Shown: positions 40,767 to 64,000, counted from the first letter of the stretch. The stretch is 64,000 nucleotides of DNA from Nitrosarchaeum koreense MY1 (GCF_000220175.1 NZ_AFPU01000001.1:717512-781511); one strand, 5' to 3'. Numbers and translations are program-made. Notes: a model not told the origin generated them from the letters alone.

Positions 40767-41390
40767 TTAGATTCTGTATACGGTCTGAAGTATTGGACTT
40801 TGGTCAATAACGTTTTGCGTAAACTGGACATTTACTGTAACCTTGTTGTTTTTGATGTCAATTTCCACATTGTCAAACAATGACTTGTATTTGTCAGTCT
40901 TGCGTCCGCTTGTAGATATCTCGTGTCCATCTTTTATCAAGAGTCCGTCTTCGATTAGTGAATTGACTTTTCTGTATCCTGATGTCTGTGGAATCTGTAA
41001 TTTTTCTAGCATTTCCAAAATTGTCCATGACTCACCAATTGACGCATTTAGTATTTTTGATGCTTCATCATCACTGTATGCTTTTAGGATTGATTGTCCA
41101 ATTGATGGCTCGGATATTGTAAATCTCTTTTGCGTCTGGTCTTTTTTTGATTTAATGCTGCACAGACTTTCAAGGAATTTTCTTTCTAGTCCCTCAGCTC
41201 CTGCTCCAAAAAATTCCCTCAATACAGAATCTAGTTTTTCAAACTCTTCCATGGACTGGGTTATGGATATACCATATCTCTCAAATAATCTATCCTGTAT
41301 CTTGTGAACCGTATTTTCACCAAGATTTTTCAGCATTGTTTTTTCAAGTGACTTTGCCAATAGTTGGGTAACGCCAGTCATGATATTCAT
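40767..41390 (-). CDS. Winged-helix regulator with thaumarchaeal N-terminal domain
   Basis: The 207-residue product has an N-terminal helical domain (about 1-80; LAKSLEKTMLKNLGENTVHK and LREFFGAGAEGLERKFLE), which I associate from memory with the thaumarchaeal output domain NitrOD5. A winged helix-turn-helix follows (about 105-175; SWTILEMLEKLQIPQTSGYRKVNSLIEDGLL) with an ArsR/HVO_A0114-like wing. It is likely a DNA-binding regulator. A response regulator gene lies immediately upstream in the same direction. Confidence 0.75.
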   Translation of the reverse strand: MNIMTGVTQLLAKSLEKTMLKNLGENTVHKIQDRLFERYGISITQSMEEFEKLDSVLREFFGAGAEGLERKFLESLCSIKSKKDQTQKRFTISEPSIGQSILKAYSDDEASKILNASIGESWTILEMLEKLQIPQTSGYRKVNSLIEDGLLIKDGHEISTSGRKTDKYKSLFDNVEIDIKNNKVTVNVQFTQNVIDQSPILQTVYRI

Positions 41391-47346: not shown

Positions 47347-48195
47347 TTACAAATGAATGTTCTTTGAATTTGTCCAAAGAGATTCAAAGAGTAATTTCAT
47401 TGAATATACTAGTGATTTTGAATTAGTCCACATTGCAAATGGCTCTGTCGTAGAGTTTGCATTCTTTGTAAAGAAAAGTAATTCAGAATCGTCTTTTAGA
47501 ATAAAGCACAAGTGATTTTGAATGTCTTTGTCTAGTTTTTTGATATTTTTTCTTTCCAGATTATCAAATATGTAGGTAGTTTTATCTGAACATGCACTTA
47601 GTAATCTAAACTGTTGTTTTGATTTTACAAAGGATTCTAAAAATTCACCATGATATAATTTGATATAGTCTTTTTCAGAACCAAGGATTAAAAATTCATC
47701 TTTAAAGTTATCAGTCATTTCAGTGATTTTTGATTGAATTTGATTTGCACCTTGAAGCATTTGGAATTTTTCTTCAACCTCATCATGTAATGAGTCAAAA
47801 GTAGGAATGTTGTCCCATAATTCAGATAATCCTTTTTCCATATGCTCTAAAGATTTGACTCTTTCTTTTTCAGCATTTACTAAAATCCATATTGCTTTGT
47901 TTAATGGTGATGCTGTAAATTGAATCGGATGTTGAAACGTTGCAGAAACAATTCCTTTGTTTTGTAATGCTGATAGTAAATGATATGTTTCAGTTCTAGG
48001 TAATTTAAGGGCCTTGCATACTTCAGGTGCTGTCTTTGCACCATATTTTCCAAGATAAATAAACACTTTACTTTGATTTGATGTCAAACCATATTGCAAG
48101 AGTTCTGCCTGAACTTTATCAAGGGATAGCTTGTACTCATACAACTGGGTGTCTGGTGTAGAGTCAAATATCGAAGTTTGTATTTCTGTGGTCAT
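47347..48195 (-). CDS. TrmB-family transcription regulator
   Basis: The 282-residue product has an N-terminal winged helix (about 28-95; LLQYGLTSNQSKVFIYLGKYGAKTAPEVCKAL and RTETYHLLSALQNKGIV), a coiled-coil linker and a C-terminal sensor region (about 150-280; DEFLILGSEKDYIKLYHGEF), as in TrmB/TrmBL proteins without the sugar-binding end. It could regulate the adjacent pilus operons or the KaiC gene downstream. Confidence 0.82.
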   Translation of the reverse strand: MTTEIQTSIFDSTPDTQLYEYKLSLDKVQAELLQYGLTSNQSKVFIYLGKYGAKTAPEVCKALKLPRTETYHLLSALQNKGIVSATFQHPIQFTASPLNKAIWILVNAEKERVKSLEHMEKGLSELWDNIPTFDSLHDEVEEKFQMLQGANQIQSKITEMTDNFKDEFLILGSEKDYIKLYHGEFLESFVKSKQQFRLLSACSDKTTYIFDNLERKNIKKLDKDIQNHLCFILKDDSELLFFTKNANSTTEPFAMWTNSKSLVYSMKLLFESLWTNSKNIHL

Positions 48196-48336: not shown

Positions 48337-48954
48337 CTATATTCCTATTTTTATGATACTTTCCTGAGAAATTGCAATTCCAGAGTAGATCGATTTGAAT
48401 GAAAAGTTTTTCCTAATATCACTTGTTTTTAGAAAGGATATTTGAAGTGGTCCATTTGAGCCATGAAATGCAATGCATGCCATATCTTCTTTAAGTCCCT
48501 TTTCAATAATGTTGTTCAATGCAGATAATGTTCTTTGAAGCATTTCTAGTTTTGATTTTAGGTCATCTATTGCCTTGAAATATAATTCTAATTCCCCTTT
48601 GAGTCCAATTCCATTATACACCATTATTTGATCCAAATTATACCAATGCTCACTATTTTTTTTGGATTGTTTTTTTGGTTTTTCAACCATCTTTTTTTCA
48701 GATTTTTTTTTATCGTTGTTTTTGAGATCCTCTGTTTTTGTATCTGTTTTCTTTTTGTCCGCAGGATTGTTTTCTAGTTTTGATTTTAGTTCTAAAAACT
48801 CAGGATCGTCTTTTGAGAATTCTTCATTTAATCTAATTTTATTACCTAAAACATTAGAGTATTCATTTATTGATTGCTCGGTTTCATCAATCTCTTTTTC
48901 AAGATTTGACTTTAAATCTTTGACTGTATTATATCTGCGAATTAATTTATTCAA
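48337..48954 (-). CDS. Pilus-locus coiled-coil protein, unknown
   Basis: The 205-residue product has two helical coiled-coil parts (about 1-45 and 120-150) separated by a Lys/Asp-rich low-complexity linker (about 60-100), and a C-terminal beta region (ACIAFHGSNGPLQISFLKTS). No signal peptide or membrane helix, so probably cytoplasmic. It overlaps the upstream gene by eight bases. Confidence 0.7.
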   Translation of the reverse strand: MNKLIRRYNTVKDLKSNLEKEIDETEQSINEYSNVLGNKIRLNEEFSKDDPEFLELKSKLENNPADKKKTDTKTEDLKNNDKKKSEKKMVEKPKKQSKKNSEHWYNLDQIMVYNGIGLKGELELYFKAIDDLKSKLEMLQRTLSALNNIIEKGLKEDMACIAFHGSNGPLQISFLKTSDIRKNFSFKSIYSGIAISQESIIKIGI

Positions 48955-49486
48955 TATTTTCCGGAATCTCCGTTACAGGAATTTTATTTGGCAGGTTTTC
49001 TTTTAATTGAGAAAGTACGTTTAGTTGTTTTGTGGCAGCTCTTAAGAAAGTAATCTTTTCTGTCAGATACGTCTTTTGTGTTTGGATTAATCCTATTAAT
49101 TGTGGTGTGATGTATTCAATTATTTTTGTGATTGTTTCAGGGGAATAATCTATGAATTTTTTAGTCTCTGTTTTACCATTTGATAGTTTAATGTTTAATT
49201 CTAAATTAGGTAACAAAACTATGTTGGCATCTGAAGGAAGATTGAATATTTCAGGATGAATGTTAACTGAAAAACTTAAAAATTCTGTAATTATTTTTAA
49301 TGCATTATGCAGATCCTCTATGATGTTTGTTTTTTGGTCTTCTAGTTCATAGATTTGCATAGATTCCTCAATCAGCGTGTTTAGCTGAGTCAAGGTACCT
49401 GCGTTAGATGTCAAAGGGTCAACAGGCATAGTAACAGATTCACTAGATACAGGATTGTTAGGATCGGCAGATTCGCTAGATTGCAT
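48947..49486 (-). CDS. Pilus-locus helical protein, unknown
   Basis: The 179-residue product has a disordered Ser/Pro-rich N-terminus (to about 35), then helices, a beta hairpin (NIVLLPNLELNIKLSNGKTETKKF) and a C-terminal helix pair. No membrane segment. It is co-transcribed with the next coiled-coil protein and lies in the same direction as the prepilin operon. No family was recognised. Confidence 0.7.
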   Translation of the reverse strand: MQSSESADPNNPVSSESVTMPVDPLTSNAGTLTQLNTLIEESMQIYELEDQKTNIIEDLHNALKIITEFLSFSVNIHPEIFNLPSDANIVLLPNLELNIKLSNGKTETKKFIDYSPETITKIIEYITPQLIGLIQTQKTYLTEKITFLRAATKQLNVLSQLKENLPNKIPVTEIPENIE

Positions 49487-49658
49487 TGATTTTATAATAC
49501 TTGAAAATTACATTAAAAGTTGTATGTACCTTAATGTTACAGAATTATCTTAGGCTCAGACATGAACAGAAGAATAAAAGACATTTCAAGACGTAAAACA
49601 GATGCAATTAACATAGAATATTTTAGTAAAGACAGATATAGAATTTAGAATAGATTGA

Positions 49659-52289: not shown

Positions 52290-52828
52290 GGAGCTATCTC
52301 CTGTGTGATGAATTGATTTCCTCTTTCTGTAAACACAACAATATTGATGTCATCACCAGAATTCCATGCATATGTTGCATTAATGGAAAAAGTACTTGAT
52401 GGGATAATTCCTCCATCAGTATAAGAAAAAATCTGCAATTCTGCCAGAGTTATTCCATCAATAAATTTCATCTCAGTTACGTTTAGTCCCAATGGTCCAA
52501 CATTGGTCATTGTAACATTAACACATTTTCCTGGACAAGTATTAGAAAACCATACATTATCAAATATTAGATCTTCATTTATTTTGTTTGTCTGGGTAGA
52601 AAATGTTTCTTCCATTGCTTGTTTTTGTGTAGTCAAGCTGCTATTTGACCATCCAAGCATCGCCACGCCCATGATACTCACTGCAGATAGGATTATGGCA
52701 CTAGTTACAACATTTGCAAGTGCTCGTCTGGAATTAAAATGAAATCGTTTATTATTTCTAAGAGAAATTTTAGACATTATCAAATTTAGATCTGGTATTA
52801 TTGATAGTGTAGAAGAGATCATAATCAC
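52286..52828 (-). CDS. Prepilin-like protein
   Basis: The protein carries the class III signal RRA-LANVVTSAIILSAVSIMGVAMLGW, a pilin N-terminal helix, and a C-terminal beta domain with a Cys pair (TCPGKCVNVTMTNVG). The ATG at 52828 overlaps the upstream stop as ATGA; an internal ATG at 52777 would give a more typical short leader. Role: minor pilin or ArlF/G-like subunit, undecided. Confidence 0.75.
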   Translation of the reverse strand: MIMISSTLSIIPDLNLIMSKISLRNNKRFHFNSRRALANVVTSAIILSAVSIMGVAMLGWSNSSLTTQKQAMEETFSTQTNKINEDLIFDNVWFSNTCPGKCVNVTMTNVGPLGLNVTEMKFIDGITLAELQIFSYTDGGIIPSSTFSINATYAWNSGDDINIVVFTERGNQFITQEIAP

Positions 52829-53280
52829 AAGTTTGGTTGAATAATGTCTGGGTTTTCTAATTCTGATTCATCTACAGGTTCTGCAACTTCGGTCATGTTT
52901 TCTTGTGTTGTGGAGACATCTTCGATCTCCTCAATTGCTTCAGATACGTTACCTGCGCCCATTCCACCAATTTGGATAGGAGGACATGAAACATTGAGAC
53001 TTTTTGAAAGCAAAAAAAATGTTGGAAATAGTTCCTGATAAATCACAGATAAAATCTTGGGAACATCGTTTTCATCCTTGGTGAGAATGTCGTCTCTTTC
53101 TTTTGCATCCCCCGCTATTTTGGTCATGCCTTCAATTGTTAGGTGGACGTTTTTTGGGTTTGATAAAATTGTAAATCCGTACTTGAAAGTAGAATGTGTC
53201 TCAGCGTTTTCGATTTCATCAATTGTTGCCTCTACATCATATTTATGAAATACATTATTTTTTGGGTCGTTTTTACTCAT
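52825..53280 (-). CDS. Pilus-locus soluble protein, unknown
   Basis: The 151-residue product starts at MSKNDPKNNVFHKY (53280); a start at 53388 would add an unlikely leader. A first segment with strands and helices (KYGFTILSNPKNVHLTIEGM) precedes a helix (VIYQELFPTFFLLSK) and an acidic, probably disordered tail. The tail has the Glu/Val/Pro-rich pattern seen in some adaptor proteins. It heads the prepilin operon and diverges from the MoxR gene. Confidence 0.7.
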   Translation of the reverse strand: MSKNDPKNNVFHKYDVEATIDEIENAETHSTFKYGFTILSNPKNVHLTIEGMTKIAGDAKERDDILTKDENDVPKILSVIYQELFPTFFLLSKSLNVSCPPIQIGGMGAGNVSEAIEEIEDVSTTQENMTEVAEPVDESELENPDIIQPNL

Positions 53281-53411
53281 GGATATAGAATTCAAGTCAA
53301 CTTGTATGTTCAATTTGATTAATTGTATCTTGAAATTCATTAAACAATGTGTATGTAATATCAGCACACACATAACAGCATTAACCATATCACCACATAG
53401 ATAATCTACGC

Positions 53412-54434
53412 ATGGAGCAAAATAGAGTTATATCATCAGTTAATCATTCAAAAATAAATTCGGACAAGGTAAATCTCTCAGTATCAATATCCAAGATAAA
53501 AAAAGACACGCATAAACTATCAAAAATGTATGATTTTAAAAAATACATGGATTCTTCAGACATGATATTTCCTCCAGAAATGGATGACATGATACCAAAA
53601 GATACGCCACCATATCTAGATAATGGAGAACATTATGTGGAGCGAATTGGAAGAGCATTAAAGTTTTTCAAACAATGCGCATTAATTGGTCCCAGTGGAA
53701 CTGGAAAAACACACATCGTATACTTGGTGGCAGAATTGGCCGGACTTCCAATGTGGGAAATTAACTGTGGTTTGGCAACATCTGTCTTTGATCTTTTTGG
53801 AAGATATGTTGGATTGGGAAAAGAGAATTGGATTGATGGATTAATTACTGGATGGTGTAGAAAGGGCGGAATATTATATCTTGATGAGGCAAACATGATG
53901 AAACAAGACGTTGCAACAAAGCTAAACCCATTGCTAGACCAGAGAGGACACATGGTACTTACAGAAAAAGATAGTGAAATTATCCACAGACACAAACATG
54001 CATACATGATAATTAGCATGAACCCAGTATCATCTGAATTTGCAGGTACAAAACCAATCAACGCAGCTATGAGGAGAAGAATGAGTGTCTGGTTGAATTT
54101 TGATTATATGAGCGTAGGAGATAATATTGATGAAAAAGAATTCAAGATGGTCTCTGAAAGAGGCGGAATTTCTCTAGAAGATGCTGAAATAATTGTAAGA
54201 ATAGGTGCAAAATTAAGACAAGAATACAAAATGGGAGATCTTCCTTATGGACCATCAGTGGGAGATTTAGTAAATTGGGCAAAGATCTGTTCAGATGGAG
54301 TTGATATTCTACAAGGTGGAAATGAAACTCTGGTTCCAATGACTAGCGATGATCCAGAAATACAAGACGAAGTAAGACAAATAATTAAAAAAGTAATTGA
54401 AGGAAAAATAGCACAGCGAAATCGAAAAGTGTGA
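53412..54434 (+). CDS. MoxR-type AAA+ ATPase
   Basis: The 340-residue protein has Walker A GPSGTGKTH (residues 93-101), Walker B ILYLDEAN (about 152-160), sensor 1 in YMIISMNPVSSE and the arginine region MRRRMSVW, the CbbQ/NorQ/GvpN-like layout. Such ATPases remodel protein complexes with a VWA-domain partner, which is the next gene, four bases downstream. In a pilus locus it may serve assembly or maturation of the machine. The start is ATG. Confidence 0.88.
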   Translation: MEQNRVISSVNHSKINSDKVNLSVSISKIKKDTHKLSKMYDFKKYMDSSDMIFPPEMDDMIPKDTPPYLDNGEHYVERIGRALKFFKQCALIGPSGTGKTHIVYLVAELAGLPMWEINCGLATSVFDLFGRYVGLGKENWIDGLITGWCRKGGILYLDEANMMKQDVATKLNPLLDQRGHMVLTEKDSEIIHRHKHAYMIISMNPVSSEFAGTKPINAAMRRRMSVWLNFDYMSVGDNIDEKEFKMVSERGGISLEDAEIIVRIGAKLRQEYKMGDLPYGPSVGDLVNWAKICSDGVDILQGGNETLVPMTSDDPEIQDEVRQIIKKVIEGKIAQRNRKV

Positions 54435-54438
54435 TTAA

Positions 54439-56004
54439 ATGAAAGAAAGAGTAGAGGATGTAGCACATAAAATCTTTTTTGACATATGTGGAAAAAAACC
54501 GACGGAGATAGATCTATTTTTTTTAGATACAATTCATTTTCCAAAAATAGATTATTTGCCAATAATAACCGTATATTTACCCATGCCACGAAAAATTAAT
54601 GGGCATAGTGTCTACGAAGGAATTGTCTTTTCAAAATACGAGTCTGGAGCGCAAACAATATGGAATTTATTTTTTGCTACTGTTTGTCATGCTGCAGCAC
54701 ATGCAAATGTAACAGATTTTAGCAAATACCAAAATTGGATTAAGGATAAAGATGAAGAAAAAGCATACAAAACAATAGAAAAAATAGAAGACATTAAAGT
54801 AAATCATTTCTTAAAGACATTTTTTCCGGAATATTATCAAGAAATAAACAAAATTAATAGTACATTTAAAATGATTAATGAAAAAAGCATTCAAGACAAA
54901 TTAACATATAAAAGAAATAAATTTATGGATAGGTTTGGTTCAAAGAAAAAAATTGAGGATGTAATTAAAAATAACATTATAAAACTAGACTCTAATGATA
55001 AAAATAAGATAATTGAAATTGCAGATAAATTATATTTTAATCAAGATATCATTGAAGAAGAAAATGCACCCTATGTTGATCATCATACTCAACAAAATAA
55101 TGCAATCAATTGGAAACAAAATATTACAATAAATCCATCGGGCATAGTAGAGAAGAATGTACAGAATTTTATAGATATTTGGTTTGAACAGCAAAAACGC
55201 AGAGATAAAACGAGGAAAAAATATGGTGGTTTGACACATGATCTAAATTTTGACAAAATTGAATTTGCTCCAGAAAATATTGGAGAGTATTTGAGACTAA
55301 GAAATGCGACCCATATGTTTTTGAAAAAGATGAGCAGCCAAATGAAATTGGTTCCAAACATAATGGATGAAGGCATGCCGGAAGATATGGGACTGTTGCA
55401 AATGCAGGCAGCAATTCAGGCAGTTGCAGCTCAAAATAACAGCATTCAGATCTTTGAGCAAGATGATTATAGGAAAATAGAAGAAGAATGGGCAGTAGTT
55501 TTAGATACAAGTTCTAGCATGAGACTAAAATTTGATGAGATGAAAAAATTTGCAATAGCACTTGGAGAAGCTGCCAATGATGTAAACTCAAAAAACGGCA
55601 AGTGGGGTTTTTTTACTTTTAATAATAATTTCAGAATAGTAAAAGATCATTATGAAAAATATGATCAAACTGCAAGATCAAGAGTTGGAGGAATAGAAAT
55701 TACAGGATTGTCTTTTATAGGAGATGCGGTAAAACTATGCACAAGAATTTTAGAAAGGGAAAACATTGAAAAAAAATTTATTTTTTTAATTACAGATGGT
55801 CAACAAGTTGGAACGCTAGGAAACAATAAAGATATGGAAGATGCGATATTGGAAGCAAGAAAGAAAGGAATCACAGTGATTGCAATAGGATTGCCAGAAG
55901 GAATCACAAAGGTGTTTAATCTTTGCATTCCTTATGAAAGTCTTCGTAAAACAGTGGCAAAATTTATTTCTGCATATGCTAGAATATCAGGCGAAGATAC
56001 ATAA
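54439..56004 (+). CDS. VWA-domain protein, partner of MoxR ATPase
   Basis: The 521-residue protein has a long helical N-terminal half and a C-terminal VWA domain (about 350-510) with MIDAS elements: VVLDTSSSMRLKF (D-x-S-x-S), a Thr in EITGLSF and ITDGQQVG. This is the NorD/CbbO-like companion of MoxR ATPases. The helical part contains a CHAAAHANV segment in place of a metal-site HExxH, so protease activity is not supported. It probably binds and presents a client protein to the ATPase. Confidence 0.86.
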   Translation: MKERVEDVAHKIFFDICGKKPTEIDLFFLDTIHFPKIDYLPIITVYLPMPRKINGHSVYEGIVFSKYESGAQTIWNLFFATVCHAAAHANVTDFSKYQNWIKDKDEEKAYKTIEKIEDIKVNHFLKTFFPEYYQEINKINSTFKMINEKSIQDKLTYKRNKFMDRFGSKKKIEDVIKNNIIKLDSNDKNKIIEIADKLYFNQDIIEEENAPYVDHHTQQNNAINWKQNITINPSGIVEKNVQNFIDIWFEQQKRRDKTRKKYGGLTHDLNFDKIEFAPENIGEYLRLRNATHMFLKKMSSQMKLVPNIMDEGMPEDMGLLQMQAAIQAVAAQNNSIQIFEQDDYRKIEEEWAVVLDTSSSMRLKFDEMKKFAIALGEAANDVNSKNGKWGFFTFNNNFRIVKDHYEKYDQTARSRVGGIEITGLSFIGDAVKLCTRILERENIEKKFIFLITDGQQVGTLGNNKDMEDAILEARKKGITVIAIGLPEGITKVFNLCIPYESLRKTVAKFISAYARISGEDT

Positions 56005-56117
56005 GATTAATAAAAATAATACTTACACATTGTATGTAATTTACATTTACATATAGAATATACAAAATTCCAATGTTGGGAAGTTAGGACAATACCTAAA
56101 TGGATGAAGAAAAGTTC

Positions 56118-56765
56118 AATTAACAAAATGAAACCAAAGCTAAACAAAAGTCGTGCATTAAGTACAGTACTTACAACAGTCATCATATTGGTGGCATCAG
56201 TTGTACTTGGTTCAGGAGTTGTTCTTTATGGTGCCAGTCTTTTCCAAGGCGGTACTCAAACAGAATCAATTTCAGTATCAGGGGTAAAAGTATGGGTACA
56301 CAGCACTGATACAAACGGTATAGCTATTGGTGCAGCTAAAATAAGAAATACGGGGGATAAAGTCGTTTCAGTAGACAAAATCCAAATCAGAGGTACAGAC
56401 GTGCCATTTACCCAATGGTTCGCAGACACCACAATAAGTTCAGCAACATTCCAACAATCATTAAACCATACGGGGTGGGCAGCAACTAGTGGAACTGGAA
56501 GTATGGCTAGACAGGTAAATAACCCAGTATGTCCTGCAGGTGCAGATTTCATATCAATTGATCTTGTATCAACAGAGACAACAACTGAAGGAATATGTGC
56601 AGATCCAGGTAATGGACCAGTAGCATTAACACCAGGTCAAGCAGCAGTTATTTACTTCAAATTAAATAACGGCACTCTGACATCACTGGATTCTGGTGCA
56701 AGTGCTAGTGTCAACATATTTGCAGGTAAAACAGGTGCACCACAAAGCATTACTGTAGAAGGAAA
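56118..56765 (+). repeat. 648-bp tandem repeat, copy 1 (pilin gene)
   Basis: Matches 56875-57522 with about six base differences (one at 56422; the rest in the last 80 bases). The repeat starts ten bases before the MKPK ATG, so the promoter regions are unlike. Confidence 0.9.
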
Positions 56766-56772
56766 AGAATAA
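56128..56772 (+). CDS. Pilin/archaellin-like protein, copy 1
   Basis: The 214-residue protein has a class III signal (KLNKSRA cleaved before LSTVLTTVIILVASVVLGSGVVLYG) and a Thr/Ser-rich beta domain with two Cys (PVCPAG and GICADPG) able to form a disulfide. It is the likely major subunit, nearly identical to the next gene. An ATG at 56104 is also open, but the second copy has only the MKPK start, so that is chosen here. A TATA-like stretch (catatagaatata, near 56052-56065) lies upstream. Confidence 0.87.
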   Translation: MKPKLNKSRALSTVLTTVIILVASVVLGSGVVLYGASLFQGGTQTESISVSGVKVWVHSTDTNGIAIGAAKIRNTGDKVVSVDKIQIRGTDVPFTQWFADTTISSATFQQSLNHTGWAATSGTGSMARQVNNPVCPAGADFISIDLVSTETTTEGICADPGNGPVALTPGQAAVIYFKLNNGTLTSLDSGASASVNIFAGKTGAPQSITVEGKE

Positions 56773-56874
56773 CAAACAGAATTCATTAAAATAGGATTTT
56801 TTAGGTAAATATTTCTAATCTGTAATTCAAAAAAATTACATACTCGCCTACATAACTAACAAAATAAGATATAA

Positions 56875-57522
56875 AATTAACAAAATGAAACCAAAGCTAA
56901 ACAAAAGTCGTGCATTAAGTACAGTACTTACAACAGTCATCATATTGGTGGCATCAGTTGTACTTGGTTCAGGAGTTGTTCTTTATGGTGCCAGTCTTTT
57001 CCAAGGCGGTACTCAAACAGAATCAATTTCAGTATCAGGGGTAAAAGTATGGGTACACAGCACTGATACAAACGGTATAGCTATTGGTGCAGCTAAAATA
57101 AGAAATACGGGGGATAAAGTCGTTTCAGTAGACAAAATCCAAATCAGAGGTACAGACGTGCCATTTACCCAATGGTTCCCAGACACCACAATAAGTTCAG
57201 CAACATTCCAACAATCATTAAACCATACGGGGTGGGCAGCAACTAGTGGAACTGGAAGTATGGCTAGACAGGTAAATAACCCAGTATGTCCTGCAGGTGC
57301 AGATTTCATATCAATTGATCTTGTATCAACAGAGACAACAACTGAAGGAATATGTGCAGATCCAGGTAATGGACCAGTAGCATTAACACCAGGTCAAGCA
57401 GCAGTTATTTACTTCAAATTAAATAACGGCACTCTGACATCACTGGATTCTGGTGCAAATACTAGTGTCAACATATTTGCAGGTAAAACAGGTGCACCAC
57501 AAAGCGTAACCGTAGAAGGAAA
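56875..57522 (+). repeat. 648-bp tandem repeat, copy 2 (pilin gene)
   Basis: Second copy of the pilin gene repeat, offset by exactly 757 bases with no gap in the match. Confidence 0.9.
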
Positions 57523-57529
57523 GTCCTAG
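56885..57529 (+). CDS. Pilin/archaellin-like protein, copy 2
   Basis: Another 214-residue prepilin, identical to the first except a Pro for an Ala, a Ser-Ala to Asn-Thr change, an Ile/Val change and the last residue. Signal peptide, Cys pair and domain layout are as in copy 1. It begins at MKPKLNKS, 112 bases after the first stop, with a TATA-like stretch too close to the ATG to be its own promoter, so it may depend on upstream transcription. Confidence 0.88.
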   Translation: MKPKLNKSRALSTVLTTVIILVASVVLGSGVVLYGASLFQGGTQTESISVSGVKVWVHSTDTNGIAIGAAKIRNTGDKVVSVDKIQIRGTDVPFTQWFPDTTISSATFQQSLNHTGWAATSGTGSMARQVNNPVCPAGADFISIDLVSTETTTEGICADPGNGPVALTPGQAAVIYFKLNNGTLTSLDSGANTSVNIFAGKTGAPQSVTVEGKS

Positions 57530-57606
57530 GGTAAGGGGAATTTTTTCAAATCTTATCCAATTCGTATTTTTAAATTATAATAAAAAGAAAGACATTTTTT
57601 GCCAAT

Positions 57607-57648
57607 AGTATGTATTGTAATGTTTCACACTGGTTGATATATCAAAAA
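57607..57648 (+). promoter_or_regulatory. 42-bp repeated promoter element, copy 1
   Basis: This sequence is repeated exactly at 60664-60705. It contains the TATA-like palindrome gatatatc (57636-57643), about 24 bases before the first possible start of the ATPase gene, and an upstream part tgtattgtaatgtttcacac that is a candidate factor site. Confidence 0.75.
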
Positions 57649-57662
57649 ATTAAGAATAAAAA

Positions 57663-59207
57663 TTGAATATAATGGGCAAAAACAAAGAAGAGCAGAGTTT
57701 AGAAACATTTCTTAAAAGTGATTTTCTAAGTGAATTAAAGAATGAAACTCCAAAGGGAACAACATTAATTGAAAACTATCCATTAAAAGCGCCATTTAGC
57801 TATGCAAATATTTTACAAGACCAAGAAAATGGAAGCATATCGTATCAAGTAGACGAAACAAAACTAAATCAACAAGAAGAAATAATTTACAATCAATTAT
57901 ACAGATTAATAGAAGAAAACCTAGATTCTCCAGAAAATATTGAAAAAGATTTTGGGTTCATGTCATTTGTAAATAAGACCATTAAAGACAATACAAAATT
58001 ATTTCAAGATTATCCCCTTGCAAGTATGGAAAAGGTAAAATATTATCTAGAACGAGATATTGCAGGTTTTGGATTAATCGATCCAATTATGCATGATCCA
58101 AATATAGAAGATGTAAGTTGTAGTGGAATAGATGCTCCAATCTATGTATGGCATAGAAAATATGACAGTATTCCATGTAACATAAAATTTCAAGATGCAA
58201 AACTCAATTCATTTGTATCCAGAATAGTATTCAGAGCAGGAAAACACATTAGTTCAGCATACCCAATTTCAGATTTAGCATTAGAAGGAAATCATAGAAT
58301 TTCAGTATTGTATCAAAAAGAGGTCACTCCAAAGGGAACAAGCTTTACAATAAGAAAATTCAAACAAGATCCATATTCGGTTGTGGATCTAATATCGTTT
58401 GGAACTATCAGTGTAGATGTTGCAGCATATTTGTGGATGTTAATGGAAGCAAAAATGTCAATTATGGTCATAGGATCTACAGGCAGCGGAAAAACTACTA
58501 TTTTAAACGCAATAACGGGACTAGTCAATCCAGACTACAAAATATTTTCTGTTGAGGACGTAGCTGAAATCAACATTAAACATGAAAACTGGTTTAGCCT
58601 AGTTGCTAGAACAGGATTTGGTCCAAGTGGCGAAGGTGAAATTGGACTATATGATCTTATAAAATCAGGTGTAAGACACAGACCGGACTATATTGTGGTA
58701 GGAGAAATTAGAGGTGCAGAAGCATATGTGATGTTTCAGGCTATGGCAACAGGACACGGTGGTCTTTGTACAATGCACGCAGACAGTTTAGAATCAGCAG
58801 GTAAAAGATTACAACAGAAACCGATGGACATTCCAGCATCATATCTATCTTTGATGAATTGTGCAATAGTAATTAGAAGAGTAAAAGGACATGATGGAAA
58901 AAGCACTAGAAAAGCAATATCAGTTCAGGAACTCAACACTGCAGATGTTTATCATTCAGCATTCAAATGGGATCCAAAATCAGATTATTTTGATGTACGA
59001 TTAGAAGATAGTGTAATGTTACATAGAATTGCAGAGCAAACAGGAAGAGACATGGAACAAATATCAGAAGAATATGAAAAAAGAAAGAGGGTCATAAAAT
59101 GGCTATTACAACGTGGAATTAGAAGTTATGCCAAAGTAGCAGAAAACATTGGAAAATATTATAGAGACCCAGAAGCGTTGATGAAAAAAATTGAGTATGG
59201 TGGATAG
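57663..59207 (+). CDS. Pilus/archaellum assembly ATPase (ArlI/GspE family)
   Basis: The 514-residue protein has an N-terminal helical domain, an AGFGLIDPIMHDPNIEDVSCSG segment, Walker A GSTGSGKTT (271-279), an Asp-box region (FSVEDVAEI) and Walker B VVGEIRGAEA, then the His box GHGGLCTMHAD. It is a hexameric motor powering pilin assembly or rotation at the cytoplasmic membrane face. TTG at 57663 and ATG at 57672 are both possible starts. Its stop is directly followed by the platform gene. A plain pilus ATPase is as likely as an archaellum motor. Confidence 0.9.
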   Translation: MNIMGKNKEEQSLETFLKSDFLSELKNETPKGTTLIENYPLKAPFSYANILQDQENGSISYQVDETKLNQQEEIIYNQLYRLIEENLDSPENIEKDFGFMSFVNKTIKDNTKLFQDYPLASMEKVKYYLERDIAGFGLIDPIMHDPNIEDVSCSGIDAPIYVWHRKYDSIPCNIKFQDAKLNSFVSRIVFRAGKHISSAYPISDLALEGNHRISVLYQKEVTPKGTSFTIRKFKQDPYSVVDLISFGTISVDVAAYLWMLMEAKMSIMVIGSTGSGKTTILNAITGLVNPDYKIFSVEDVAEINIKHENWFSLVARTGFGPSGEGEIGLYDLIKSGVRHRPDYIVVGEIRGAEAYVMFQAMATGHGGLCTMHADSLESAGKRLQQKPMDIPASYLSLMNCAIVIRRVKGHDGKSTRKAISVQELNTADVYHSAFKWDPKSDYFDVRLEDSVMLHRIAEQTGRDMEQISEEYEKRKRVIKWLLQRGIRSYAKVAENIGKYYRDPEALMKKIEYGG

Positions 59208-60659
59208 ATGTCTTTTTTAAAAAGCTTTGAGCAAAAAGATAAGCAAAAAAAATTAAATAAAAAAATAGATTCTGAACTACCCTTTTTCATTACAATAGTT
59301 ACGTTGCTTTCAACAAGTGGGTTTGGGCCATATTCAATTTTTATTAAAATCAAAGATATGGAACTTTTACCACATGTTAGAAAAGAAGCAATGAAGATTT
59401 TAAAAAAGATCGATATTTTAGGCATGGACCCATTAACTGTAATGACAGAAGTAAAAGACAGGGGGCCTTCAAATTTTGGAGAGTTTCTTAGTGGATATGT
59501 ATCTGCCATTCAAAGTGGAGGAGACGTGGTAAATTATCTTAAAACTAAAATGACTAGTGCTTTTGATCTTTATGAGAATGCCCAAAAAGGGTTAGTGGAT
59601 CAGGTCAAAGCACTTGTAGATACATATCTAACAATGCAAATCGTCATTTTAGCAGTATACATCATAGTCACTGCTACAACTACGGGAGGCATAACAGGAG
59701 CACCTCCATTGGAGACAGATATTGATCCAATTTATTTTGTAATTTTAATGCCTCCAATAATTTCTGGATTATTTTTGTTTCTTGCAAAATCAATAAACAA
59801 ATCAAAGATTGACGAGATAGACTTGAAAAAAATCATAATGTTTGGAATTCCAGGGATTATTGCAGCAACTGCAATAATTTTTCTAAAAATAATACCAGAT
59901 TATAATTTGTATATTTTAGGAGGGGCATTAATTGTATCTGCAGTATGGCCCGCAATAAAATTCCAGAGCAGATACCAATTCTCCCTTGATGCAGAATCGG
60001 CAGCAGCGATAATTCTCAGAGATGTTGCAGAAGCAAGAAAAGCAGGTCTAGGTCCTGAAAAATGTGTTATTCGAGCAACAAAAAGAAAGGACTACGGATT
60101 ATTCAATAAAGTGGCAAATGGTATTTCAAACAAACTAGAGTGGGGCATGACACTAGAGAACATTTTCCAATTTATTAAAAAAGAAACTACAGACTTTCAG
60201 ATTTTAATTAATTTCAGAGTTTTGTTTGAAATAATTTCATCTGGCGGAGGTAATGTCAACACATTGGATACATTAGCAAGTATTTCAGAAAAAATTCGAA
60301 ACATAGAAAAATCAAAAAGAGATATGTTAAAACCATATGTACTAGTAGGGTTTATGCTCGTAGGAATTACCAGTTTTACAACATTGCTAGTGATTGATTC
60401 ACTTACGGGCATAGGGACAGGCCTAGAAGCAGATGAAGTAAAGAAAAACACACTCCAAATGGAATCAAATGCCCGTTTTGAATTATTAGGAATAGCCATC
60501 TTGGTTCAAGCATGGTTATCTGGGTTATTTTTAGGTAAAATCACTACAGGATCGTATTCTGCAGGATTCAGACATTCTATTATTCTAATAATAATTTCAA
60601 TGATATCAATAGCAGTAATTCAATCAAAAATATTCAGTGTCGGCACGATATTTGGTTAG
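59208..60659 (+). CDS. Pilus/archaellum membrane platform protein (ArlJ/TadC family)
   Basis: The 483-residue product has two T2SSF-type domains (about 20-140 and 270-380), each with the helical pattern ending in a Gly-rich turn (GEFLSGYVSAIQSGGDVV; FRVLFEIISSGGGNVN). Membrane helices lie at about 144-168, 178-197, 207-225, 380-400 and 425-480. It anchors the motor ATPase. Its ATG starts directly at the ATPase stop, showing coupling. Confidence 0.9.
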   Translation: MSFLKSFEQKDKQKKLNKKIDSELPFFITIVTLLSTSGFGPYSIFIKIKDMELLPHVRKEAMKILKKIDILGMDPLTVMTEVKDRGPSNFGEFLSGYVSAIQSGGDVVNYLKTKMTSAFDLYENAQKGLVDQVKALVDTYLTMQIVILAVYIIVTATTTGGITGAPPLETDIDPIYFVILMPPIISGLFLFLAKSINKSKIDEIDLKKIIMFGIPGIIAATAIIFLKIIPDYNLYILGGALIVSAVWPAIKFQSRYQFSLDAESAAAIILRDVAEARKAGLGPEKCVIRATKRKDYGLFNKVANGISNKLEWGMTLENIFQFIKKETTDFQILINFRVLFEIISSGGGNVNTLDTLASISEKIRNIEKSKRDMLKPYVLVGFMLVGITSFTTLLVIDSLTGIGTGLEADEVKKNTLQMESNARFELLGIAILVQAWLSGLFLGKITTGSYSAGFRHSIILIIISMISIAVIQSKIFSVGTIFG

Positions 60660-60663
60660 AATC

Positions 60664-60705
60664 AGTATGTATTGTAATGTTTCACACTGGTTGATATATC
60701 AAAAA
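60664..60705 (+). promoter_or_regulatory. 42-bp repeated promoter element, copy 2
   Basis: Exact copy of 57607-57648. The TATA-like gatatatc (60692-60699) is about 28 bases before the TTG start of the downstream surface protein gene. It lies within six bases of the platform gene's stop codon. Confidence 0.75.
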
Positions 60706-60724: not shown

Positions 60725-63313
60725 TTGAAAGCAATTTTTTTGATATTAGTAGTATTTTGCAGTATGGTTATCATGCCAGCTTATGCTCAAACAACAGCGG
60801 AATTTGGATATCAACTACATCCTGAAAAATTATTAGAAAATACGGTAGGCACATTACAGATTTTTGTTGCTTCAAATGGAATGATGGTGCCAAAATCAAT
60901 AGATAATCTCAAAGTGACAAGTTCAGATAATTCAATCATACAAATAATTAATGTGGAAGAAAATAATAACGGATATACAAAGAATGTACAAATTAAAGCA
61001 ATGAAACCAGGAATTGCAAATATTGCGTTGGCAGCACCAGGGTTTTCATCAAAAGAAATAACTTTGGAAGTATTCAACAACAATAATCATCCAACTCAGA
61101 TATTAATGAAAATCACTCCAAATGATTTTCCAATAGATGGACCAAGATTTGGTTATGTAACTGTAGAATTAGCAACAACTGGTGGGTTACCTACAATTGC
61201 ACCAGAGGATATAACAATAAAAATAGAAACTCCAAATAAAGATACAATAAGCATAAGAAATCAAGAACTGACAATTAAGAAAGGAGAATACTTTGCCATA
61301 ACAGAATTTGATTTAATAAATTCAGGTGATGCAATTATTTTTGCAAGTGCTGAAAATATGAAAAAAGTTAGTGAATTTGTGAAAGTACGTAAACCAACAG
61401 ACCCATTACAAGTTAAATTGTTTGTAATTCCCGAAACATATAGTAGTTACAGTGGTGCCAAAGGGTATGCAATAGTACAATTACATGATGGTGATGGATC
61501 TCCCGTAAAAGCTGAGGAAGATATTCATATGAAATTAGGAGTAGAAAATCCAGATGTATCAATTAACACAAGTCATGACTTTGAGGAAATTCAATTCAGC
61601 AATCAAGAATTAGTAATCAAAAAAGGAACGTATTCAGCATATACGACATTCACTCCTAGACCAAATCTAGGAGAATTTACCACATCTGATGCACAGACAT
61701 TTGAAATGTTTATTTCAACTAATAACTATCTTACAGAGGGAGCTTCATTTACTGTAACTCATGATGAGGTTGGTGCTTTAGAAGGAGAGGGGCCATCAAT
61801 TACAACTGCACTCCCATTTTTAACTACTGGAGAAAAAGAGCTTATTGCTGTAACTTATTTTGAGACAGACACGGTAGTTTCAAGAAAGACAGGAAGTAGC
61901 ACGTTAGGTACATCAGACAGAGAACTGGTAACAGTTACAGTACCAGTAACCGCTAAACAAGATTATGAGATAAATTTTGCGTCTTCAAAATCAAGTACAG
62001 TTAACCCAATTAATCCAATTATGAAAAAAGGGGATAATATTGCATTAGTTTTTGGAAATACTGGAACTGTTGCTCATGATGAACCAATATCATTTTACAT
62101 TACAGATAATCAAGGAGTAAAAACAGTACCAGGCAACCCGATAGGACCGATCAAAGAAGATATCAGTTTAACTGTTGAGCCATTAGTTCCAGTGATTTTA
62201 GTAGGAAGTGAATTTCCGACAATAGCATATTTGCTAGAAACAGAAGGAGAATCAGATACAACTACAACTGATGAAGAAGATGAGGAAGAAGAGAATGGAA
62301 GAATTGGCGTAACTCCATTTATTGAGGATTCGGTTCTAACTTTATCTGCAAATGATTTTGTAAATACTGAACCCGAAATAATCAAAAAGAACCAACCATA
62401 TGTGTTGTTAAATTTATTAACTGATGAAATTGGAGATGCTACATTATCGTTTCAAGCAGGTCAGTTTGAAGGAACCATGACAGCAACTAGTCACACTACA
62501 GATCCTGCAGAAATGCACATGTCATTTGCAGAAAATCTTTTGGCAAACTCTGAAAGCTTAGCTACAATTCAATTGCTAGATTCAGCAGGGAATCCGGTAT
62601 ATGCAAAAAATGATATTTTAATAAAAATAGTATCAAATGATGAATCAGTTTTAGAAATTCCAGAAGAGATTACAATAAAAAAAGGAGAATACTTTAACAC
62701 AATAAAACTAGAATCACGTGATGAGGGTTTGATTGAAATTGCGTTATTATCGGAAGATTTACCTTTATCAAAATACAATATCAATATTGTAGATATTAGT
62801 CCAATAGTATCTTTAGATTTACTTGGAGGTATGAATTGGAATGAACGTGTAGAAGCAAAACTGTCTGTAACAATTCCCGAAATTAATACAGCGTTAGGTG
62901 GATTTGATGTGGAATGGGTTGCAACTGGGGGAGAAATACTACAATCAGATGACAGCACCAATAATGAAGGGATAGCAATAATGAACATTCTTGCCAATGA
63001 TAAAGATACAATATCTATCTCTGCAACAGTTTCAGGAAATGGTTTTAGTTCATCTACAATTTCAAAAACTGCACAAATACTAAACATACCGATAGTTGAA
63101 ACGCCTGTAGAACAGGAACAAGGGTTTATGATAAATGATTCAAATATGATCTACATAATAATTCCTGCGGCGATTGGAGTTGTAGTGTTTATTTTAAAGC
63201 GTACGGAGAAATTGGAAATTATAACTGAAAAGTTAGGCATTGCAGACAAGCTAAACATTGGTGAGAAATTTGAAGGGATTAAAGAAAAAATATCAGAGAT
63301 AAGAAATCGTTGA
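60725..63313 (+). CDS. Large anchored surface protein, pilus-locus
   Basis: The 862-residue protein has a signal peptide (MKAIFLILVVF...AYAQT), many beta-sandwich (Big/Ig-like) repeats with the recurring phrase ITIKKGEYF or VIKKGTYSAYTTF, an acidic Thr/Asp/Glu stretch (about 515-527), one C-terminal membrane helix (MIYIIIPAAIGVVVFIL) and a basic/amphipathic cytoplasmic tail. It is a probable cell-envelope receptor or stator-like partner of the pilus. The repeat phrase at about residues 180, 300 and 660 marks related domains. Confidence 0.8.
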   Translation: MKAIFLILVVFCSMVIMPAYAQTTAEFGYQLHPEKLLENTVGTLQIFVASNGMMVPKSIDNLKVTSSDNSIIQIINVEENNNGYTKNVQIKAMKPGIANIALAAPGFSSKEITLEVFNNNNHPTQILMKITPNDFPIDGPRFGYVTVELATTGGLPTIAPEDITIKIETPNKDTISIRNQELTIKKGEYFAITEFDLINSGDAIIFASAENMKKVSEFVKVRKPTDPLQVKLFVIPETYSSYSGAKGYAIVQLHDGDGSPVKAEEDIHMKLGVENPDVSINTSHDFEEIQFSNQELVIKKGTYSAYTTFTPRPNLGEFTTSDAQTFEMFISTNNYLTEGASFTVTHDEVGALEGEGPSITTALPFLTTGEKELIAVTYFETDTVVSRKTGSSTLGTSDRELVTVTVPVTAKQDYEINFASSKSSTVNPINPIMKKGDNIALVFGNTGTVAHDEPISFYITDNQGVKTVPGNPIGPIKEDISLTVEPLVPVILVGSEFPTIAYLLETEGESDTTTTDEEDEEEENGRIGVTPFIEDSVLTLSANDFVNTEPEIIKKNQPYVLLNLLTDEIGDATLSFQAGQFEGTMTATSHTTDPAEMHMSFAENLLANSESLATIQLLDSAGNPVYAKNDILIKIVSNDESVLEIPEEITIKKGEYFNTIKLESRDEGLIEIALLSEDLPLSKYNINIVDISPIVSLDLLGGMNWNERVEAKLSVTIPEINTALGGFDVEWVATGGEILQSDDSTNNEGIAIMNILANDKDTISISATVSGNGFSSSTISKTAQILNIPIVETPVEQEQGFMINDSNMIYIIIPAAIGVVVFILKRTEKLEIITEKLGIADKLNIGEKFEGIKEKISEIRNR

Positions 63314-63404: not shown

Positions 63405-64000
63405 TTGTTTGAATTATTGAATTACGATAACATCGGAATTGGATTAGCACTCGTTATGCTAATAGTAGGATCCATAATTGATATTTGGAAAAGAGAAATT
63501 CATGATTATTTTTGGATGGTGTTTGGGAGTATTGGATTTTTACTAGTTTTTATAAATTCAGATATCTTACCGCATTTACTTTATCTCGGAATAGCGTTAA
63601 TCATAGCACCGTTTGTGATTTTCATTTGGAGAATTGGCTTATTTGGAGGGGCAGATGCATTTGCGTTAATTGCATTAGCAGTAATTGCACCAATGGCCAC
63701 ATTTTCTGAAAATCCAGTAACACCATTTACAACATTATCAAATGCTGCAGTGCTGTTTATCTTACCATTTATCATTAACTTGATTAGAAATTTAGCAGCA
63801 CTCATAAAACATGAAAATATTTTTGAGGGATTTGAAGAAACAGAATTTAAAAAAATTTGTGCAATGTTAATCGGATATAAAGCCAAAAACCCTAAATTTT
63901 GTTTTTCAATTGAAAAAATTGAAAAAGGTAAAAAAAAGATAAACCTTACAATCCATCATGCAGAAAACGAAGAATATTGTACAGAACCAAATACATGGAT
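63405..64000 (+). CDS. Archaeal prepilin peptidase (A24 family), 3' end outside window
   Basis: The open frame runs off the window. From the TTG at 63405, a hydrophobic protein shows the catalytic Asp26 in GSIIDIWKREIHDYFW and Asp84 in GLFGGADAFALIAL, matching the archaeal G-x-hydrophobic-D motif. Predicted function: cleavage of class III signal peptides, as on the four prepilin-like proteins here. A cytoplasmic/soluble C-terminal extension starts at about residue 140. A TATA-like stretch (gaaatataaa) lies 30 bases upstream. Confidence 0.85.
   Translation, partial: MFELLNYDNIGIGLALVMLIVGSIIDIWKREIHDYFWMVFGSIGFLLVFINSDILPHLLYLGIALIIAPFVIFIWRIGLFGGADAFALIALAVIAPMATFSENPVTPFTTLSNAAVLFILPFIINLIRNLAALIKHENIFEGFEETEFKKICAMLIGYKAKNPKFCFSIEKIEKGKKKINLTIHHAENEEYCTEPNTW

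Follow-up and report, generated by a model that had tools for sequence, protein, structure and literature searches.

Shared upstream elements at archaeal filament promoters are already known from the ups pili, whose promoters they coordinate, and from EarA sites, which drive archaella. In the Sulfolobus ups operon, which encodes UV-inducible pili, the hexanucleotide A(N)TTTC occurs at the upsX, upsE and upsA promoters, so that several promoters of a single pilus locus have a common element just ahead of BRE/TATA (PMC5817253). In euryarchaeal archaellum operons, EarA sites (TACATA) lie upstream of the BRE as short tandem units, and EarA probably helps TFB (PMC10665913, PMC5512572); archaeal activators usually sit directly upstream of the BRE (PMC5512572). 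TrmB-family operators are inverted repeats, with activator sites upstream of BRE/TATA and the regulator gene beside the target locus, and auto-regulation has been reported or proposed for some members (PMC4158304). In 2016, Makarova et al. surveyed the subclade 4A type IV pilus loci of thaumarchaea, which include vWA and MoxR/GvpN genes; that survey covers genes and possible regulators, and the word 'promoter' is absent from its main text (PMC4858521).

Here we describe a locus with the same constituents (secretion ATPase, TadC and pilin, with linked vWA and MoxR/GvpN genes) in a window of 64 kb, the whole stretch of DNA analysed, from a genome whose nearest named relatives are Nitrosarchaeum (Nitrosopumilaceae). 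Its TadC and its pilin match Ups proteins as distant relatives, and as in ups an element directly upstream of BRE/TATA recurs at separate promoters. The elements themselves differ: the ups motif is non-palindromic, six bases long, UV-linked and present at many genes (PMC5817253), whereas here we find a 23-base dyad that in this genome hardly occurs outside the locus. In the alignment of relatives' promoters, the conserved columns are the palindromic arms and not an ups-type A(N)TTTC at -44 to -39. Neither the dyad with its 13-base spacing, nor its sequence, nor its use at pilus loci throughout the Nitrosopumilaceae was found in the literature searched.

The 42-base repeat and its setting

The features of the locus are collected in Table 1. 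Past the end of the window, the prepilin peptidase gene is followed by genes for a TrmB-family regulator (PF01978; C1:781699-782655), a response regulator and a histidine kinase. The gene order of the locus is retained in many Nitrosopumilaceae. The 862-aa protein has no family match.

Table 1. Genes, promoter elements and hairpin of the pilus locus (window positions).
Feature	Position	Strand	Remarks
179-aa ORF	48947..49486	-	no assigned function; promoter with relaxed dyad
Relaxed dyad TTCTG-N13-CATAC	49522..49544	-	upstream of 179-aa ORF; TAAT box 6 bases further
187-aa ORF	52825..53388	-	divergent from MoxR; no assigned function; true start probably near 53279
Dyad GTATG-N13-CACAT	53351..53373	+	between divergent 187-aa ORF and MoxR gene
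MoxR/GvpN-type AAA ATPase	53412..54434	+	
vWA-domain protein	54439..56004	+	
Dyad GTATG-N13-CATAT	56032..56054	+	upstream of first pilin gene
Pilin copy 1	56104..56772	+	
Variant site TCTGTAATTCAAAAAAATTACATAC	56819..56843	+	arms 16 apart; upstream of second pilin gene; variant also in Nitrosopumilus pilin promoters
Pilin copy 2	56885..57529	+	weak UpsA-like match
T-rich hairpin	57529..57558	+	separates pilin from ATPase genes; stem of 7 bp including one G-U
Putative promoter module, copy 1 (dyad + BRE/TATA)	57607..57648	+	upstream of secretion-ATPase gene
Dyad GTATG-N13-CACAC, copy 1	57608..57630	+	
TATA-like GATATATC, copy 1	57636..57643	+	from sequence; TATA columns conserved in relatives
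Type IV pilus secretion ATPase (T2SSE; PF00437)	57672..59207	+	
TadC/UpsF-like membrane protein (T2SSF; PF00482)	59208..60659	+	
Putative promoter module, copy 2 (dyad + BRE/TATA)	60664..60705	+	upstream of 862-aa secreted protein gene
Dyad GTATG-N13-CACAC, copy 2	60665..60687	+	
TATA-like GATATATC, copy 2	60693..60700	+	from sequence; TATA columns conserved in relatives
862-aa secreted protein	60725..63313	+	signal peptide-like start, C-terminal membrane segment; syntenic in most relatives examined
Prepilin peptidase (A24/FlaK-like)	63405..64000	+	continues past window end

A reading of the sequence alone had pointed to an exact 42-base repeat amid unrelated flanks, each copy ahead of a gene start with a TATA-like box at the expected distance, and this description holds in every part. 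The two copies are identical at 42 of 42 positions (AGTATGTATTGTAATGTTTCACACTGGTTGATATATCAAAAA); stretched to 47 nt they are 96% identical, and the flanks fall to background (8/30 identical upstream, 8/20 downstream). The centre of GATATATC lies about 33 bases before the ATG at 57672 in copy 1 and about 28 before the TTG at 60725 in copy 2. No third copy of the 20-base core exists at three or fewer mismatches in the whole 1,607,695-base genome, and shuffled windows give an expectation of 0.03 for this core in the window.

Each copy contains the inverted repeat GTATG-N13-CAYAC, which ends six bases ahead of the TATA box and has its left arm about 30 bases upstream of it. The spacing from arm to TATA box is fixed at about 6-7 bases, placing the site directly upstream of BRE/TATA. 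Among 31 diverged representatives of the promoter of the 862-aa gene, the informative columns are mainly those of the two arms, the TATA box and a few positions just inside the arms; the flanks contribute little. The repeat is very probably a single archaeal promoter module, an inverted repeat joined to a TATA box, present twice.

The tandem pilin genes are nearly identical and share another repeat, of 300 identical bases (56118-56417 and 56875-57174), and the promoters of the two copies differ; relatives carry one or two pilin copies. A second inverted repeat, TTCCAATGTTGGGAA / CCCCAATATTGGGAA, lies between the TATA box and the start of one pilin copy (about 56069-56085 in the window) and recurs in the pilin upstream regions of several species (L150, L153, L092).

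Distribution of the dyad

Alignment with the promoters of relatives, a check proposed on first reading, finds the module at 60664 conserved family-wide and that at 57607 conserved in Nitrosopumilus. Upstream of the 862-aa gene, whose products share 28-81% protein identity, TNTGT-N12-CAYAY is present in 39 of 46 regions and the stricter GTNTG-N13-CAYAY in 38 of 45; nearly all of these regions read GTATG-N13-CATAC, with a TATA box six or seven bases later. Copy 2 is an old promoter, conserved across the family. Both promoters, about 3.05 kb apart, occur in all eight complete Nitrosopumilus loci found (among them L065, L066, L067 and L092), and we therefore dropped the idea that copy 1 is an insertion unique to this genome. 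The ATPase-promoter element is absent, and the spacer between pilin and ATPase genes short, in Nitrosarchaeum genomes G004, G007 and G011 and in the more distant G001 and G020. Dyads stand at MoxR and after TadC even in a locus from outside the family (L053).

Some loci are incomplete. In one (L154; G122:C1:768000-787000), the ATPase gene with its dyad promoter is present and no TadC or 862-aa gene was detected downstream in the stretch examined. In four others (L182 in G146:C64, L176 in G002, L177 in G009 and L183 in G016), the flanking TrmB genes lie close together and the downstream one is fragmentary or lacks its HTH; these are apparent scars of pilus-locus loss, and G146 retains a pilin fragment with a dyad promoter.

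Within the window, GTNTG-N13-CAYAY occurs at exactly four places (53351, 56032, 57608 and 60665), all of them pilus-locus promoters; counted by strand there are seven matches against 1.8 expected, a number reached by none of 100 shuffles. Two of the four are the sites near 56031 and 53350 that had been suspected as weaker versions of the repeat. Genome-wide, GTATGT-N12-CAYAY is found at five places, four in the locus (the MoxR site being counted in a shorter, overlapping form), so that the motif is not spread over many unrelated promoters here, an outcome that would have refuted the first reading, although G022 has more sites elsewhere. The genome's other pilus locus (850-880 kb) lacks the strict dyad. 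A genome scan allowing a single mismatch is no richer than its reversed control, and weak sites are for this reason not callable genome-wide.

Promoters that had no part in defining the spacing were scored with the left arm relaxed. A spacing of 13 occurs upstream of TrmB in 23 of 32 regions, MoxR in 18/31, pilin in 22/48, the 179-aa ORF in 5/6 and the ATPase in 8/44, with other spacings rare at the first four, and the dyad is missing upstream of the operon-internal control genes TadC (0/51) and vWA (0/32). As relatives share descent, these counts are not independent; thinning to representatives, after which the peak at 13 persists, eases this dependence and does not remove it. The relaxed dyad of the 179-aa ORF is almost perfectly conserved in Nitrosopumilus. 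Many pilin promoters in Nitrosarchaeum and Nitrosopumilus, including second-pilin promoters, have a 16-base spacing instead, and the sites at TrmB and the 179-aa ORF have a weaker left arm (TCTG). Given the spacing of 16 at the second pilin and these weaker arms, it is not certain that one factor serves all sites.

Instead of the promoter pair first proposed, then, the site is carried by five or more window promoters and by that of the TrmB gene just outside. Its occurrence before nearly every transcription unit of the locus across Nitrosopumilaceae points to a pilus regulon. The genome G022 has about 20 GTNTGT-N12-CAYAC sites (contigs C6, C9 and C13; L185-L188), many of which precede the starts of genes for small membrane proteins by 42-58 bases, while one precedes a TrmB paralog; its regulon has apparently expanded, and the motif there also precedes several non-pilus membrane-protein genes.

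Origin of the identity between the copies

We interpret the 42/42 identity as reflecting strong constraint together with recent copying, or short gene conversion (homogenisation), between the two promoters. Pairs within a genome differ at a mean of 4.6 of 42 positions compared to 6.9 between genomes, a result driven largely by two identical pairs (permutation p 0.005, not corrected for phylogeny). In one Nitrosopumilus genome (G169, L067) the pair is likewise identical, in letters private to that genome.

In its core, copy 1 reads like the downstream promoter of Nitrosarchaeum (first base A, TTGATATA). Its 3' flank looks like the ATPase promoters of Nitrosopumilus (alignment z 1.3 to 4.6) and unlike the spacers of unpaired Nitrosarchaeum (z -1.3 to -2.5), the stretches compared being short and AT-rich. 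This mosaic of core and flank suggests that an old ATPase promoter was overwritten by short gene conversion. Of the earlier proposal that the promoter was copied as a cassette, the part that stands is that the core looks copied from the downstream promoter; the 3' flank, which looks like an old ATPase promoter, does not fit it, and we consider gene conversion at least as likely.

Alternatively, the ATPase promoter could be a recent duplication of the downstream promoter, by cassette copying in this genome only, with no wider regulon. Arguing for this are the complete identity amid unrelated flanks, the private letters CACTGG common to both copies, and four genomes assigned to the same genus and with a spacer available (G001, G004, G007 and G011), which have a short spacer and no ATPase copy. 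Counter to this, an ATPase promoter occupies the same place in Nitrosopumilus loci, the dyad also stands at other promoters of the locus, and the 3' flank has the affinity described above. We regard such a duplication as possible but unlikely, and grant it this much in view of the short, AT-rich flanks and of a tree in which the genome has no settled place among its sisters. With a support of only 0.1 for its placement within Nitrosarchaeum, the tree gives no order for gains and losses of the ATPase promoter.

Proposed mode of action and candidate factors

What was observed is the sequence, its conserved spacing and footprint, its restriction to promoters, and the presence or absence of the site in relatives. 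On this basis, a dimeric factor acting on the dyad probably coordinates the pilus locus, most likely by activation through TFB/TBP. The factor would bind the inverted repeat GTATG-N13-CAYAC and help TFB/TBP to load, and the activated promoters would yield leaderless or short-leader transcripts; one factor could in this way coordinate the pilins, the assembly ATPase and TadC, the large surface protein and the MoxR/vWA pair. The conserved dyad, whose spacing of 13 bases and distance to the TATA box do not vary, supports the factor-binding site that the sequence-only reading had placed at co-regulated promoters; the co-regulation itself we infer.

Activation is the most likely mode because the dyad lies directly upstream of BRE/TATA. 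The dyad could instead be a repressor operator, used for example in auto-repression by the flanking TrmB protein. Its closeness to BRE/TATA, its presence at the TrmB gene's own promoter, which fits auto-regulation, and the ability of known TrmB proteins to repress (PMC4158304) would all accord with repression. However, the dyad ends about six bases before the TATA box without overlapping it, whereas the repressor sites of TrmBL1 and Tgr lie at or downstream of the TATA box or start, and their activator sites upstream (PMC4158304); we think repression rather improbable.

As to the identity of the factor, the TrmB-family protein at the edge of the locus is the best candidate because its gene is adjacent in many relatives, carries a dyad in its own promoter and has decayed in several genomes that lack the pilus (G002, G009 and G016). 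We put it forward as the leading candidate, in a role that it may have but that we consider somewhat short of probable. The co-occurrence of gene and site is mixed, and two genomes speak against the candidate: G001 has a perfect dyad without a locus-edge TrmB ortholog, and G008 has an intact TrmB gene with no pilus ATPase ortholog found. The dyad of the TrmB paralog in G022 lies 52 bases before the start, and the TrmB upstream regions of L069 and G022 read GTATG-N13-CAYGC. Described TrmB operators, TACT-N3-AGTA and TATCAC-N5-GTGATA, differ from GTATG-N13-CAYAC, and the known members sense sugars (PMC4158304).

The promoter of a TrmB paralog that flanks the locus on its upstream side (47347-48195, minus strand) contains a different palindrome, GATCGATCCGATC, which is strongly conserved; the dyad is missing from this promoter in Nitrosarchaeum and Nitrosopumilus. 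Auto-regulation by the dyad is thus less likely there, and the GATCGATCCGATC palindrome likely marks a different regulon. EarA shares with the present system a surface-filament locus and related half-site letters (TATGTA/TACATA), but its tandem units contrast with an inverted repeat of 13-base spacing (PMC10665913, PMC5512572). It is excluded as the factor by the absence of an EarA homologue from the genome: the Pfam model PF07381 gave no match here and did match its M. jannaschii control. A 207-aa protein (40767-41390), also considered as a regulator, has no linkage to the pilus locus and was set aside.

Two further explanations dispense with a factor. Conservation of the TATA box and surrounding bases could reflect a strong basal promoter only, an extended BRE/TATA; with a left arm some 30 bases upstream of the TATA box, both arms among the most informative columns, and strict matches nearly confined to the pilus locus, this is very improbable. 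An exact direct repeat flanking two genes might also be a mobile-element end, a recombination site or a chance repeat, but promoter positions and distances to gene starts are fixed and conserved in dozens of species, with no insertion pattern and no third genome copy, so that a mobile element finds no support and the whole group of explanations is highly improbable.

The hairpin between the pilin and ATPase genes

The stem of this hairpin varies in sequence yet stays complementary (GGATAAG/CTTATCC, GGCAAG/CTTGCC, GAGTAAG/CTTACTC, GGTAG/CTACC and GAGAG/CTCTC in the window and the spacers of relatives), and it separates the pilin and ATPase genes in most close relatives. The hairpin lies 22-28 bases ahead of the ATPase start in close relatives without the promoter pair and about 93-110 bases ahead of it in genomes that have the pair. 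By analogy with the Pyrococcus archaellum operon, which has intergenic terminators (PMC10665913), the hairpin may be a partial terminator, possibly setting the ratio of pilin to ATPase. If so, the extra ATPase promoter would restore expression of the ATPase and TadC.

Discussion

Joining these elements gives a tentative picture, which we hold as a possibility rather than an expectation: a dedicated pilus regulon throughout the Nitrosopumilaceae, with GTNTG-N13-CAYAY at all units of the locus and run by the TrmB protein at its edge, in which short gene conversion keeps copies alike and the ATPase promoter has been gained or lost between genera. The dyad offers a rule for predicting targets of the factor in any genome of the family. 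As a cis-element of fixed spacing, conserved from Nitrosotalea to Nitrosopumilus, it is also a precise bait for isolating that factor.

If the picture is true, gain and loss of the ATPase promoter between genera would let the expression of pilin and motor be uncoupled. The comparison of relatives shows promoters being gained or lost, and made alike, while the rest of the operon stays fixed; this may be how control of a surface structure is rewired.
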